From a virus, in IMG/VR virus record IMGVR_UViG_3300028569_000115, positions 1 to 30,868 of that record: DNA of 30,868 bases, one strand, 5' to 3'. The notes beneath the pieces were generated by a model. That model worked only from the letters and a program-made list of their open reading frames with translations, ran no database searches and had not been told where the DNA came from. Positions within the stretch are counted from its first letter, which is position 1, and each line of letters opens with the position of its first letter. This document shows positions 4,439-27,475 of this stretch, one piece after another. The position numbers and the translations under genes are program-made.

Positions 4439-5755
4439 ATGGACGCTTTTAAACAGCTTCAAGTGTTGAAGCAAAAAAAATCCGCCTTGACTGAAGAGGC
4501 CAATGCCATTTTGGCCAATGCCGCTTCTCAAGATGGCTTGCTGACTGAAGACCAAGTAAAATTGGTTAATGAAAAGCATGAACAACAAGTCAAAATTAAC
4601 GAAAGCATTGATTTGTTTATGAAACAAATCGAAATGCAACGTGGCTCAGAAGTGGTAAAAGAATTACAAGCCACCGAAGAAAAGCTGCAAGGCGCCCCAG
4701 TGCAAACCCCTAAGCTGTTCGAGAGCTTTGGCGATCAACTGATGGCTATTGCTAATGCAGGCCGTCCTAATGGTTCCATTGACAACCGTTTGGCTGAAAT
4801 CCAAAACTACTCTGGTATGGGAACTGCCGCTGGCGGTGACGGTGGCTTTTTAGTGCAAACCGATTTTGCCAACGAAGTGTTTAAGATTGCCTTTGAAACT
4901 GGCATGCTGTCTTCTTTGTGCCGTGAGATTGAAATTGGCGCACAAAGCAACGCTATTGAAGTGCCTTATATTAAAGAATCCAGCCGTGTGAATGGTTCTC
5001 GCTGGGGTGGTGTTCAAGTGTACCGTGTGGCTGAGGGTGGCACTGCTACTGCATCGAAGCCCGTCATCGGCAAACACCGTATCGAGCTGGAAAAGCTCAT
5101 GGGTATCGGTTACGCCACCGAAGAATTGCTTCGTGACGCTACCGCCATGGGTAGCCTGATGACTCAAGCCTTTGGCGAAGAGTTTGGTTACAAGCTAGAT
5201 GATGAAATCATCAATGGTAACGGCGCTGGTGAGTGCTTAGGTATTCTTAACTCCAATGCTCTTGTTGCTGTGGCTAAGGCTACCGGACAGGAAGCGGATA
5301 CCGTGTTAGCTGAAAACTTGAACGCCATGTATCATCGCTTCTTATCTCGCCGGCGTGCCAACGCTGTTTGGTTGGTCAACCCTGACGTGGAAGCCCAATT
5401 CGATGAGATGGTATTGCCTATCGGTACAGGTGGCGTCCCTGTGTACCTGCCTGCTGGCGGTTATGCTGATACCCCCTACAGCCGCTTGAAAGGCCGTCCT
5501 GTGATGCCTATTGAGCAATGCGCTGCGTTGGGTGATCAAGGCGATGTAATCCTTGCTGATTTGAGCCAATACGCTTTGATCCGCAAAGGTCGCTTACAAC
5601 AAGCCACCAGCATGCATGTGCGTTTCATCTACGACGAAATGGCTTTCCGCTTCACGATGCGCGTGAATGGTCAACCGTTGTTACATAACGCCATCACGCC
5701 TGCTAATGGCACCAACACCCGTTCCGCGTTTGTTACTTTGGCCGCTCGCGCCTAG
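4439..5755 (+). CDS. Major capsid protein, HK97 fold, with N-terminal scaffold domain
   Basis: This 438-aa protein is the main shell protein. Residues 1 to about 95 are highly charged, Gln/Lys/Glu-rich and predicted helical, like the HK97 delta (scaffold) domain that the upstream S49 protease would remove. The mature region starts around NRLAEIQNYSGMGTAAGGDGG and contains the G-G-F-L-V-Q-T-D-F N-arm and the axial/peripheral segments usual for this fold (FGEEFGYKLDDEIINGNGAGE; RGRLQQATSMHVRFIYDEMAFR). I choose ATG 4439 because GGAG at 4429-4432 lies six bases upstream; an ATG at 4427 would put that Shine-Dalgarno inside the gene. The C-terminus MRVNGQPLLHNAITPANG is typical of phage capsids. 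Confidence 0.93.
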   Translation: MDAFKQLQVLKQKKSALTEEANAILANAASQDGLLTEDQVKLVNEKHEQQVKINESIDLFMKQIEMQRGSEVVKELQATEEKLQGAPVQTPKLFESFGDQLMAIANAGRPNGSIDNRLAEIQNYSGMGTAAGGDGGFLVQTDFANEVFKIAFETGMLSSLCREIEIGAQSNAIEVPYIKESSRVNGSRWGGVQVYRVAEGGTATASKPVIGKHRIELEKLMGIGYATEELLRDATAMGSLMTQAFGEEFGYKLDDEIINGNGAGECLGILNSNALVAVAKATGQEADTVLAENLNAMYHRFLSRRRANAVWLVNPDVEAQFDEMVLPIGTGGVPVYLPAGGYADTPYSRLKGRPVMPIEQCAALGDQGDVILADLSQYALIRKGRLQQATSMHVRFIYDEMAFRFTMRVNGQPLLHNAITPANGTNTRSAFVTLAARA

Positions 5756-19299: not shown

Positions 19300-20041
<742 letters not shown>

Positions 20042-23634: not shown

Positions 23635-24087
23635 ATGGAAACCTTTAAGGTATTCTTTGATCGTAGCAGCGACACAATAGACGGTGTCCTAACCCTTCAA
23701 AATACCAAAGGGGTTAAGCTGATTAACCGTGTGAAAGCCCGTAGTGGACAGAAGGGCCACACAGCTAGCAGTTGGACACGGGGTAAAAGCCCGATTCCCT
23801 TTGGGATTCACTGGTTACATTTAAAGCCTAATAACGCAGGATTGAAAGCAGGGGCCCGTGGAATTGGTGAGTTTTATCCTATCTCTACCAATGGCGATGG
23901 CCTTACTATTGTGGGTAAAGACCCTTCCCAACGCCGCTATGAAATAGGCCTGCATGAGGAGAATATGTGGGCGGGTAGTGCTGGCTGCATTGTGATTGTG
24001 AACCCTAACGACTGGCAGGCTATCCGCCAAGAGTTAAAAGCCATTGCTAAAACTGGGGTGGATAAGATTAAAATTGAAGTGGTGTGA
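23635..24087 (+). CDS. L,D-transpeptidase/YkuD-like protein, probable endolysin
   Basis: In this 150-aa protein the segment YEIGLHEENMWAGSAGCIVI (residues 102-121) has H107, S115 and C118 in the order H...S-x-G-C-[IV] of the YkuD/L,D-transpeptidase active site, but with a shorter His-to-Ser distance than in bacterial enzymes. PFGIHWLHLKP near residues 55-65 and a glycine-rich GARGIGEFYPIS segment also match the small cupped beta fold. Such domains in phages are thought to process cell wall peptides. The gene lies after the tail module, as lysins do, and no other lysin is visible in the window. The upstream gap of 22 nt contains GAGGGCAAGGC as ribosome binding site. Confidence 0.6.
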   Translation: METFKVFFDRSSDTIDGVLTLQNTKGVKLINRVKARSGQKGHTASSWTRGKSPIPFGIHWLHLKPNNAGLKAGARGIGEFYPISTNGDGLTIVGKDPSQRRYEIGLHEENMWAGSAGCIVIVNPNDWQAIRQELKAIAKTGVDKIKIEVV

Positions 24088-24191
24088 GAAGCTACCGCCA
24101 GCGGTGCCGTTTAACAGGTGCGCCGCTACGGTATAAAGACTTTTACGAGCAAAATAGTATAATAGAACTGTCGCTTATAGAAAGGCTACAT

Positions 24192-24419
24192 ATGAACATC
24201 GTTGCACTGTTAGCAGACTTGTTAGGCTCTCGCACCCTAGGGCTGGCGATTCGCCTCATCCCTTACATTGGCAAGGCTTATGACAAAGCCAAAGGTGACG
24301 AGTGGATCTACGACAAAATCAAAGGCTATACGCCTAACGCCACACTGGACGAGATGAAAGAAGTCATCAAGACTGGAAGGGCTTTTACCGCTGCATGTTA
24401 CGCCTTTTTTCACAATTAG
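24192..24419 (+). CDS. Small hypothetical protein, start uncertain (24084 or 24192)
   Basis: The frame is open from a GTG at 24084 that overlaps the lysin-like stop (GTGA), giving 111 aa, and an in-frame ATG at 24192 gives 75 aa, preceded by GAAAGG. I give the shorter form because its sequence looks like a complete domain: NIVALLADLLGSRTLGLAIR, then IPYIGKAYDKAKGDEWIYDK and DEMKEVIKTGRAFTAACYAF. The GTGA overlap, seen elsewhere in this genome, supports the longer form. The N-terminus of the short form is amphipathic and moderately hydrophobic, possibly membrane-active, but not a convincing holin. Function unknown. Confidence 0.58.
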   Translation: MNIVALLADLLGSRTLGLAIRLIPYIGKAYDKAKGDEWIYDKIKGYTPNATLDEMKEVIKTGRAFTAACYAFFHN

Positions 24420-24889
24420 TTTTAACCTTGTGGCTCTCAATGGGGGTGGCGCACGCTGCCCTTTTTGAAGACTTTACCGAGGAATACCGTTATATAGCCA
24501 CAACATATAACGGCTATGATTCACGGCAGCCTATCTACACCATTGGCCCTATACACAATGAAGTAAGCAACGCTTGCTATCTTATTAGCGCTCAGTATGA
24601 AGTGAGTAATACAGATGAAAAGCATAACATCATGGTCGGGCAGACCATTATCCGAACTAGAGATTTATCTGACACTCGCGGAGTGCGGATACTACCTGCC
24701 ACCACCACAAACGTTGACCGCCAGCGATACCATGAGCGATGGAATGGAAGCATTGTCGACTGCCCACCTGTCGGGGTCTGGTATTATCGTCTGATGGTTT
24801 ATAGTGGCTTACGTAAAACAATCCAGCCAGCCATACGGGTAGAGCAAGGCTATGGGTTTTTGCAGGCCTACAGGGTTGATAACAACTAG
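24395..24889 (+). CDS. Secreted protein with Sec signal peptide, unknown function
   Basis: A 164-aa protein whose first 21 residues are a classic signal peptide: MLRLFSQLVLTLWLSMGVAH followed by A, with an A-x-A-type cleavage site. The mature part (starting ALFEDFTEEYRY) has two Cys (about residues 49 and 122, by my count) that could form a disulfide in the periplasm. It is beta-rich with no membrane span. A phage-encoded periplasmic protein next to the lysis genes could affect superinfection, envelope state or lysis, but there is no motif to decide. The start overlaps the previous gene by 25 nt, and the gene end lies in the first unit of the 15-bp repeat array. Its signal sequence is related to that of the J-like protein (see findings). 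Confidence 0.75.
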   Translation: MLRLFSQLVLTLWLSMGVAHAALFEDFTEEYRYIATTYNGYDSRQPIYTIGPIHNEVSNACYLISAQYEVSNTDEKHNIMVGQTIIRTRDLSDTRGVRILPATTTNVDRQRYHERWNGSIVDCPPVGVWYYRLMVYSGLRKTIQPAIRVEQGYGFLQAYRVDNN

Positions 24890-24970
24890 CTCATTAACAA
24901 CTAGCTCATTAACAACTAGCTCATTAACAACTAGCTCATTAACAACTAGCTTATTAACAACCAGCTGTCA
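24881..24970 (+). repeat. Array of six 15-bp direct repeats
   Basis: Four identical units AACAACTAGCTCATT (24881-24940), a fifth with one change (CTTATT, 24941-24955), and a diverged sixth (AACAACCAGCTGTCA, 24956-24970). The array starts in the last codons of the upstream gene and its first TAG is that gene's stop. The 15-bp period keeps frame, so every unit except the last repeats the TAG in the same frame. Function may be an iteron-like binding array, or it may be a simple slippage expansion. Confidence 0.93.
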
Positions 24971-25018
24971 CATAACCGCCGTTTCAATCTGCTAACTTTG
25001 TGGCTTGGAGGTGTTTGT

Positions 25019-25426
25019 ATGTTGCAGCTTCAAGGCTATGGAATCTATCGCCCAGCAATTCAATTTACTGGCTGGTTTGAAAAGAAGCTAAAACAAAAGA
25101 TGCTGCATGAGGCTGGTTGTGTTTGCGCTGCATGTGGCGGGGCTTTCCAAAACCCTTGGGAGGCTCAGTTTCACCATCGTAACCCAGAGACTAAAGGGTT
25201 CCATTTAAGCCACAGAGATATGGAAGGGCGGACACTGGAGGAAATTGAGGCGGAGCATAAAAAGGGAGAATGGCTGCATCCTGACTGCCATAAGCATGCC
25301 CATCAAACCAATGACCCCAACCGCTTTGATAGTGAGTATTTGCAGAATAAAGAAGATAGCCATTCTGCAGAAAGTAAACGCCTTGGCAGGTTACGTGGTA
25401 AGATTAAATTCTCAGCGTTAGCTTAG
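25019..25426 (+). CDS. HNH endonuclease-like protein
   Basis: This 135-aa protein has the ββα-metal HNH layout: EAGCVCAACGGAF with the zinc-binding pair C36/C39, then AQFHHRNPETKGF with the catalytic His pair (H52/H53) and Asn, and LHPDCHKHAHQTNDP with C90 and H93/H95. I choose ATG 25019 because GGAGG (25007-25011) lies seven bases upstream. The frame is open further upstream, up to the last TAG of the repeat array. HNH proteins in phages serve DNA packaging with terminase, or act as homing or DNA-degrading nucleases. This one is far from terS in this window, so its job is open. Confidence 0.85.
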   Translation: MLQLQGYGIYRPAIQFTGWFEKKLKQKMLHEAGCVCAACGGAFQNPWEAQFHHRNPETKGFHLSHRDMEGRTLEEIEAEHKKGEWLHPDCHKHAHQTNDPNRFDSEYLQNKEDSHSAESKRLGRLRGKIKFSALA

Positions 25427-25435
25427 GGTTATAGC

Positions 25436-25948
25436 GTGATTCCACCTTTATTAGATGCCCGCATGCAGACATGGGCCACCACCAAACAGCCGTCGTTAGA
25501 CGCTAAACAAGAGATGGGGGATTATTTGTGGCAGTTATACGATAGAGGTTTGCTGACCACACAATTACCCGCCCAATTAGCAGGGGAAGTGAGGCAGGTG
25601 CAAAGTATTAAACGCAAGGCCCATCCGGATAAGTGGGATAAGGTGGAAGAGGAATACCAAGAGCTCTTAGCAGAAGTGCCTGAAATTAACCCAGAGACTT
25701 TAGAGCCATTTCATGTAAAGGGAGAGTTTGATATTCCACTTTCAGAGCCTCACTGGGTGCAATTCCTAGCAGCCCTCAAGTGGCCCTATATTGCAATCGA
25801 AAAGTTTATGGAGTTTGAACGGCTCAAGATTGATGGTCGGCTACGCTATCAGGCCGCTAATCCAACTATTCCAAAAGAGCAACGTAAGGCTGATTTAAAA
25901 CAATACGAAACACAAGCGGCAAAATATGTGTTTGATGTGGGAGGATAG
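25436..25948 (+). CDS. Hypothetical protein at the end of the rightward operon
   Basis: A 170-aa protein starting at GTG 25436, nine bases after the HNH stop. It is helical and charged, with LDAKQEMGDYLWQLYDRGLL, then KRKAHPDKWDKVEEEYQELL and a C-terminal helix EQRKADLKQYETQAAKYVFD. No membrane segment, signal or known motif. It ends the + strand unit just before the terminator at 26003. It could belong to a late or packaging gene set with HNH, but this is only position. I do not recognise it. Confidence 0.7.
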   Translation: MIPPLLDARMQTWATTKQPSLDAKQEMGDYLWQLYDRGLLTTQLPAQLAGEVRQVQSIKRKAHPDKWDKVEEEYQELLAEVPEINPETLEPFHVKGEFDIPLSEPHWVQFLAALKWPYIAIEKFMEFERLKIDGRLRYQAANPTIPKEQRKADLKQYETQAAKYVFDVGG

Positions 25949-26002
25949 GTTCCCGCTAAGCAATCATCTCTACCCCCTGCCCGCTTTCACGCTAGCAGGT
26001 GC

Positions 26003-26026
26003 AAGCCCTCAGCAATGGGGGCTTTT
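26003..26026 (+). terminator. Intrinsic terminator of the rightward operon
   Basis: AAGCCCTC (26003-26010) pairs with GGGGGCTT (26017-26024), with one G-U, around a six-base loop AGCAAT, and is followed by TTTTGCTGTTT on the + strand. It sits 55 nt after the last rightward gene and marks the end of the late unit. Confidence 0.75.
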
Positions 26027-26087
26027 GCTGTTTGAACCTATGTAATTTATGCACAGGTTGCGCTTAATTTAGTGCAGGTTATGAACA

Positions 26088-26109
26088 TATATACACAAAA
26101 CTGTATATA
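26088..26109. other. AT-rich perfect inverted repeat in the convergent gap
   Basis: TATATAC (26088-26094) and GTATATA (26103-26109) form a perfect 7-bp inverted repeat around ACAAAACT. It lies in an AT-rich stretch (about 26040-26125) between the two converging operons. Nearby CACAGGTT (26052-26059) and TGCAGGTT (26073-26080) form a loose direct repeat. The rest of the 25949-26179 gap holds the terminator and nothing else I can name. A binding site or hairpin is possible, but I see no associated promoter. Confidence 0.4.
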
Positions 26110-26179
26110 ACGGTGCATATTATGCTGTGAACTACATACGACCCCGCCAAGCCTCTCAGCGATGCTCAAACCGACGGGG

Positions 26180-26482
26180 CTATTTACTACCATCAATCAT
26201 CGCATCAATCACAATCTTAGCCTCTGGGTCTACCTCTGCCCAACGATAGGCCATCTCTGTCACCACAGTATCTAGCAACTTGTGGGTTAATGGGCATTCT
26301 AGGCGACCCGTCATGACGCCATTCATCACTTTTAGGTCAGTGAGTGCTTGCATCGCCATCGCAAAGCGAAACTCTGGGTTGAGGTTGTCATTGCTAGCTA
26401 GCTTTACGACGTCCATATAGATAAGCCGCTTCACATCATCCAGTGTGGCGGCTTTCTTGGTTACTTTCTTAGAGGCTAGCAT
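26180..26482 (-). CDS. Hypothetical protein, last gene of the leftward operon
   Basis: A 100-aa protein starting at an ATG that directly follows the methylase stop (TGA ATG), so the two are probably co-translated. It starts with a basic segment (MLASKKVTKKAATLDDVKRL) and continues as helices with MDVVKLASNDNLNPEFRFAM and KVMNGVMTGRLECPLTHKLL. No recognisable fold. The coupling suggests it may work with the methylase, for example as a specificity or accessory factor, but that is guesswork. Confidence 0.68.
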   Translation of the reverse strand: MLASKKVTKKAATLDDVKRLIYMDVVKLASNDNLNPEFRFAMAMQALTDLKVMNGVMTGRLECPLTHKLLDTVVTEMAYRWAEVDPEAKIVIDAMIDGSK

Positions 26483-27475
26483 TCAAAACAACCCCATCTG
26501 CTGCACGGTAACTGCGGGGCGGTTGCAGAATAGCCGCTCGGTGGCTACTACATTATTGCTGCTAGAGGATAGTGTCACCCGCTTTTTAAAATTAAACACC
26601 TCGTAAAAATCATCTGGCATGGTGTACTCGCTGATAAACACCGTGTGGTGTTGCTTTCTAAGCCATTCATCAAAAGCCACATAGCAAAACTCTTGGCGGT
26701 ATTTACACGTCCCCCTATAAGGTGGGTCACAATAGATAATCACTTCATTGTCATCATAAGGCAGTGGCACAGCGTTATAGGAGAGGTTTAACAGAGTGAA
26801 CCGTTGGAGCCGTTCGAGTTGTTGGAGCCGTTCGAGTTGTTGGAGTTGTTCGAGTTGTTGGAGCCGTTCGAGTTGTTGGAGTTGTTGGAGCCGTTCGAGT
26901 TGTTGGAGATCATATCGCCCGTATTGCATCTTCACTTGACGCATGATATCCAACCGTCTCTCGTTGACGGTGGCCTTATTGCTTAATTTTACAGCGTTGC
27001 TGTGGGTATCATTAAACCGTTGTAGGCTATCCACACACCCAAACACCACCATATTATGCAGCAGGTGCTTTGTGGCCTCAATTTCAGGATTAAACATGTA
27101 ACTCCTACGGGTATTCCCAAACGAGCAAACCACACGACAGAACTCGCTGTAAGGGGTGTGCAAGTCTATCTGCTCAAAAAACCGCTCACGGGTGACAAAC
27201 TGATAAAAATCGTCAGGGAACAAACCATACTGCCCACGTTCACCGCTAGCAATTCGCTTCATGAGCCACGCCACAAAACTGGCTAGCTGTCCGTCGTACT
27301 CGTTATACACCACCTGCAAGCCAAGCTGGCTGGCCATGAACGACATCGATCCGCCACCACCAAACAGGTCTACAAACACCTTAGCCTGTGGCTTCATGGC
27401 GATCATCTCACGCACCAGCATCTCAGCAACGGTTTGCTTGCCACCCATATAGGGGATTCTTAATGGGTATAACAA
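26483..27475 (-). CDS. DNA adenine N6-methyltransferase, D12 class, with Leu-x-x repeat insert
   Basis: This 330-aa enzyme would methylate adenine in phage DNA, using S-adenosylmethionine, to evade restriction or mark DNA. Order of motifs fits the D12/Dam class: RIPYMGGKQ (residues 6-14), motif I DLFGGGGS (36-43) for AdoMet, and catalytic DPPY (about 249-252) in IIYCDPPYRG. Between them, residues about 189-224 consist of 12 Leu-x-x triads (LQQ, LER, LEQ), then FTLLNLSYN. The repeat is also present at DNA level (separate entry). The start is TTG at 27475, with GGAG nine bases upstream (27485-27488 on the + strand) and an in-frame stop just before. The length without the insert is typical for this family. 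Confidence 0.92.
   Translation of the reverse strand: MLYPLRIPYMGGKQTVAEMLVREMIAMKPQAKVFVDLFGGGGSMSFMASQLGLQVVYNEYDGQLASFVAWLMKRIASGERGQYGLFPDDFYQFVTRERFFEQIDLHTPYSEFCRVVCSFGNTRRSYMFNPEIEATKHLLHNMVVFGCVDSLQRFNDTHSNAVKLSNKATVNERRLDIMRQVKMQYGRYDLQQLERLQQLQQLERLQQLEQLQQLERLQQLERLQRFTLLNLSYNAVPLPYDDNEVIIYCDPPYRGTCKYRQEFCYVAFDEWLRKQHHTVFISEYTMPDDFYEVFNFKKRVTLSSSSNNVVATERLFCNRPAVTVQQMGLF
26803..26910 (-). repeat. Twelve 9-bp repeats inside the methylase gene
   Basis: Read on the + strand, twelve consecutive 9-bp units follow GTT-S-GAG-NN (GTTGGAGCC, GTTCGAGTT, GTTGGAGTT and one GTTGGAGAT), with no interruption. On the coding strand each unit encodes one Leu-Gln/Glu-Gln/Arg triad. The units are never frame-breaking, so unit number could vary without inactivating the enzyme. 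Confidence 0.92.

Follow-up and report, generated by a model that had tools for sequence, protein, structure and literature searches.

Five in-frame stop codons between two phage genes: probably a recently expanded 15-bp tandem repeat

Five TAG codons follow one another in a single reading frame between two genes of a phage, and the downstream gene lies in that same frame. To find out what this pattern represents, we analyzed the whole stretch of DNA (the window), a 30,868-base IMG/VR record that resembles a siphophage genome fragment. Its plus strand carries genes for a P27-type terminase small subunit, the terminase large subunit, head, tail and lysis-type proteins, and is followed by early-type genes on the minus strand. 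In the lysis region, the protein encoded at 23635-24087 occupies the expected place of the endolysin and has a weak Tlde1 domain match (E 1.4e-4, below Pfam's cut-off). The locus itself consists of a trio of genes and the array:

24395 to 24889, plus strand: secreted-protein gene taken from the open reading frame list, 164 aa with an N-terminal hydrophobic signal-like segment; its TAG stop lies inside array unit 1
24880 to 24969, plus strand: 15-bp tandem array of six units, the last one degenerate (Tandem Repeats Finder score 160)
24887 to 24949, plus strand: five in-frame TAG codons in 15-bp steps (24887, 24902, 24917, 24932, 24947), the first being the stop of the secreted-protein gene
25019 to 25426, plus strand: HNH endonuclease gene, 135 aa from ATG 25019 (PHROG 2255 HNH endonuclease, E 3.9e-13)
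25436 to 25948, plus strand: gene of unknown function, 170 aa, third of the trio

No Pfam family was found for the secreted protein, which has insignificant PHROG matches only, and the 170-aa protein has no match in Pfam or PHROG. Structures of the secreted protein and the HNH protein predicted from two-sequence alignments reached a mean pLDDT of 36 and 53, respectively, and were too poor for use.

Tandem Repeats Finder delimits the array to 24880-24966 with a period of 15, 5.8 copies and 97% matches. Units 1 to 4, at 24880, 24895, 24910 and 24925, are identical (TAACAACTAGCTCAT); unit 5 at 24940 differs from them by one base (TAACAACTAGCTTAT), and unit 6 at 24955-24969 (TAACAACCAGCTGTC) keeps only the first part of the unit before the HNH leader begins. 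The array starts inside the secreted-protein gene, within its last two codons, and the first unit includes the stop. A sequence-only reading had described six units with five in-frame TAGs and a CAG at the sixth in-frame position, followed by the HNH gene, whose frame is that of the TAGs and has no further stop after the last of them (24947); the list of units bears this out. It had extended the feature over 24881-25018, of which the repeated part stands, but the array ends at 24969 and the rest is unrepeated leader. The exact self-match at a shift of 15 is 57 bases long, while 60 Markov shuffles gave at most 13 at any period from 4 to 60; as a repeat, the array is beyond chance. Its units lie head to tail, are nearly identical and fall within the 10-100 bp range of a minisatellite. 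An open frame arising from the repeat itself (LTTSS on the forward strand, third frame; ELVVN on the reverse strand) was also considered and dropped; it is used by no gene.

As 15 is a multiple of three, a stop codon within the unit recurs in the same frame with every copy, and the five in-frame TAGs are no second coincidence beyond the repeat itself. As to the frame common to both genes, 11 of the 32 neighbouring gene pairs of the window agree in frame, with one in three expected, and given the dinucleotides of the window, a run of 23 stop-free codons has a probability of about 0.30.

A comparison became possible with a contig from a 44,122-base viral record (L016), which was found by scanning with the 170-aa protein. 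It is the sole relative of the trio that was found, and the comparison thus rests on two sequences. The three genes occur in the same order as in the window and encode a secreted protein that is 73% identical, an HNH protein that is 31% identical and a 170-aa protein counterpart that is 69% identical; the HNH proteins have the positions Cys, His-His, Asn-Pro and Cys-His...His in common. A search with the conserved end of the 170-aa protein as a degenerate pattern retrieved 13 contigs, among which only that of L016 gave a tblastn match to the trio, and the exact conserved leader as a query matched this contig only. HNH queries gave no usable relative in viral contigs and phage records, the secreted and the 170-aa protein were not found in phage records, scans of genome contigs retrieved neither array nor trio, and the exact two-unit pattern of the array does not occur in the viral contigs. 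Relatives of the terminase and tail proteins do not reach the array locus.

At the site of the array L016 has GATAATAAGTGACCGTCACATAACC, one unit's length and free of repeats. The spacer between stop and ATG measures 129 nt in the window and 53 nt in L016; without five units the window spacer would be 54 nt. The copy number is therefore lineage-specific as judged from this single syntenic relative, and the earlier suggestion of a repeat expansion adjoining the stop of the secreted-protein gene is supported. The unit count differs between the two phages, which favors slippage. The remaining difference of one base (54 vs 53 nt) places the HNH gene of L016 in another frame than its secreted-protein gene (stop to ATG 56 nt, remainder 2), the stop of the latter is TGA, and the HNH frame is shut off upstream by a TAA at 5607. 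Consequently, neither a fusion nor a readthrough product is conserved, and the frame that both genes share in the window is incidental. With no fusion conserved, the second condition that the sequence-only reading had named also comes out in favor of slippage.

The independence of the HNH gene is further supported by the sequence directly in front of it. GGAGGT (25007-25012) stands six bases before ATG 25019, which is the likelier start compared to TTG 24998. Together with two more elements downstream, the leader is shared between both phages:

24967 to 25018, plus strand: HNH leader of about 52 nt with the Shine-Dalgarno sequence GGAGGT at 25007-25012, conserved in L016
26003 to 26031, plus strand: hairpin resembling an intrinsic terminator, where the trio ends; L016 is identical in 29 of 29 bases
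26068 to 26126, no strand assigned: A+T-rich non-coding element, 86% identical in L016

In the alignment of leader and ATG, 49 of 55 columns (about 89%) are identical. The genes of the trio reach DNA identities of 64%, 45% and 66%, and only 37%, 28% and 44% at third codon positions. No 54-nt stretch of the first two genes attains the identity of the leader, and in the third gene 0.7% of the windows do so. Given this excess over coding stretches of the same length, the HNH leader is under constraint. Since the conserved leader with its strong Shine-Dalgarno sequence directly precedes the ATG, the HNH protein is most likely translated independently from its own start. The array takes up exactly the short piece that follows the last conserved codons of the secreted protein and stops where the conserved part of the leader begins.

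The three shared elements (window 24967-25031, 26003-26031 and 26068-26126, corresponding to L016 5601-5664, 6543-6571 and 6830-6888) are 86-100% identical compared to 28-44% at the third positions of the genes between them, which suggests regulatory constraint. A conserved element motif, GTGYATATTATG, did not recur as a genome-wide promoter. In a blastn comparison of window 24001-26300 with L016, shared DNA is confined to the trio and the sequence just after it; the neighbours of the trio in L016 are different, with a terminase-like gene following it. The trio therefore looks like a unit that is exchanged between phages.

Taken together, we consider it probable (roughly 85%) that the array is a young minisatellite which arose by replication slippage or unequal recombination, that the HNH gene is independent, and that the array is a passive spacer. 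A single ancestral 15-bp segment, comprising the final two codons and the stop of the secreted-protein gene together with the start of the HNH leader, would have been multiplied to about six copies in the lineage of the window phage. The stop codon would have been copied as a passenger, with all copies in one frame. The first TAG would terminate the secreted protein, and the HNH protein would be translated separately from ATG 25019 by means of its own Shine-Dalgarno leader. The array would thereby occupy exactly the part that can vary, flanked by two constrained elements, and would probably do no more than lengthen the spacer from 54 to 129 nt.

The mechanism of slippage, the near-neutrality and the direction of the change are what we infer: expansion in the window is preferred over loss in L016 because L016 has no trace of a repeat and the units are nearly identical. 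Four identical units and one with a single change indicate a young array, and the near-identity may reflect either a recent expansion or homogenization by ongoing copy-number change. Two other arrays in the window (19757-19923 and 26801-26908) are both coding and have periods divisible by three, and tandem expansion is therefore a common event in this phage; an array was also present in several of the other loci retrieved for comparison. The first of the two encodes collagen-like Gly-Ala-Thr repeats (units of 18, 27 and 72 bp) in a tail-fibre-associated protein. The second lies in a minus-strand gene (26483-27475) for a DNA adenine methyltransferase of the Pfam D12 class, where an 18/27-bp tandem array encodes a Leu-Gln-rich run of LQQLER-type repeats that interrupts the methyltransferase. 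One must keep in mind that the six units may be an assembly error of the metagenomic contig. In short-read assembly, the collapse of such arrays is commoner than their expansion.

Minisatellites of variable length have been documented in phages. In Corynebacterium phage CL31, a 42-bp unit in clg55 is present 4, 6 or 8 times depending on the plaque (PMC8002715). Both arrays are organized head to tail with nearly identical units of a length divisible by three, one of which differs by a codon. The CL31 array is located inside a gene and its variation was observed among plaques, whereas the window array straddles a stop codon, is mostly intergenic, and its variation is deduced from the single-copy relative. 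The HNH gene likewise agrees with other phage genes of PHROG 2255 in its conserved HNH motif positions, in being free-standing and in having its own ribosome-binding site. It differs from them by its place in a trio with a secreted and a 170-aa protein, which was not found in other phage and genome collections.

A different role for the array would be that the number of units tunes HNH expression through its effect on spacing, on RNA folding or on the coupling with the preceding gene, and acts as a slow switch. The position of the array directly 5' of the strongly conserved leader and the increase of the stop-to-start distance are in line with such a function, and the window's leader, folded by itself, does slightly better than shuffles (z −2.2). 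However, the array itself folds no better than shuffles (z −0.6), the L016 leader gives no such signal (z −0.5), the intact Shine-Dalgarno sequence would drive HNH expression alone, and variation in the number of units was not directly observed. We regard tuning as unlikely.

Slightly less likely again is a set of protein-binding sites (iterons, an origin or an operator) for a phage or host protein. This had been put forward as an alternative in the sequence-only reading, and the even spacing and A+T-richness of the units (34% G+C vs 48% for the window) agree with it. A comparable case is Xanthomonas phage Xop411, whose four perfect 15-bp A+T-rich tandem repeats lie in a region for which the authors suggested a test of replication-origin function (PMC2248197). 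The Xop411 repeats resemble the window array in their 15-bp period, their A+T-rich and non-coding nature, and in being absent or different in the A+T-rich regions of the sister phages as described there; they differ from it by an unrelated unit sequence, an A+T content of 96% over the segment and the proposed origin. Against binding sites speaks that no other copy of the unit occurs in the record within two mismatches, and that the unit is missing from L016, where everything around the array is present; iterons would be expected to be conserved in relatives and bound by a replication protein. The dyad symmetry of the unit (8 of 15 matches) is reached by 77% of shuffled units, and with 15 bp, about 1.4 helical turns, neighbouring units would face different sides of the helix. 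These comparisons lend the binding-site alternative no positive support.

To a similarly small degree we consider an active array, in which the HNH enzyme would nick at or near the spot and break repair would drive the expansion, or in which the unit number would tune the amount of HNH protein. If this were true, the spacer would be an evolvable dial for a mobile gene trio.

Very improbable is a readthrough or amber recoding that leads to a fusion of secreted protein and HNH, or an origin of both genes from one ancestral frame. The one frame of both genes and the lack of a stop between the last TAG and the HNH gene invite this explanation, but translation would have to pass through five TAGs in succession, and the joined product would place a nuclease behind an exported protein. 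Programmed readthrough depends on a conserved open frame after a single leaky stop, and L016, with its TGA and its HNH gene out of frame, has none; the once-continuous frame that had been considered is contradicted by the same findings. Recoding had already been called unlikely and this holds: TAG is the ordinary stop of 16 of the 45 genes assigned in the window, among them those of the major head protein and a major tail protein, and neither a suppressor tRNA nor any other tRNA gene is present in the window, the record being an incomplete genome. Just as improbable are fail-safe terminators selected against readthrough into the HNH gene, as the five stops in frame might suggest, since L016 has no such additional stops, the non-stop part of the unit is copied as faithfully as the stop, and a systematic study found no evidence of selection for additional 3' stops in eubacteria (PMC6764699).

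Downstream of the trio, at 26143-26179 on the plus strand, the window contains an abiF RNA (Rfam RF03085, 48.8 bits at a gathering score of 37), and there is no Abi_2 gene (PF07751) anywhere in the window's record. The same combination was found in the whole records of Acinetobacter phage Acj61, cyanophage S-SZBM1 and the mycobacteriophages Thibault and Bromden, where the RNA match exceeds the gathering score in each case; the match in Arthrobacter phage Mimi is below it. In several of the phages checked the RNA is located in or near a tRNA cluster. A sub-threshold match to the DUF3800-IV RNA was seen near the tRNA genes of Mycobacterium phage Thibault (L035, 4384-4465). An abiF sRNA was reported earlier in cyanophage S-CREM1 (PMC9964418), and in C. 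difficile abiF RNA represses the toxic AbiF protein (PMC12373285). Our guess is that phages may carry the RNA alone as an antidote to a host AbiF.

The eye-catching pattern of five in-frame stops and two genes in one frame is simple arithmetic after the duplication of a 15-bp unit, and one syntenic relative suffices to resolve it. Of greater interest than the array is the orphan abiF RNA. More useful, too, are the leader, the terminator and the A+T-rich element, which in two otherwise different phages are far more conserved than the silent sites of the flanking genes and suggest regulatory constraint on a mobile gene trio.
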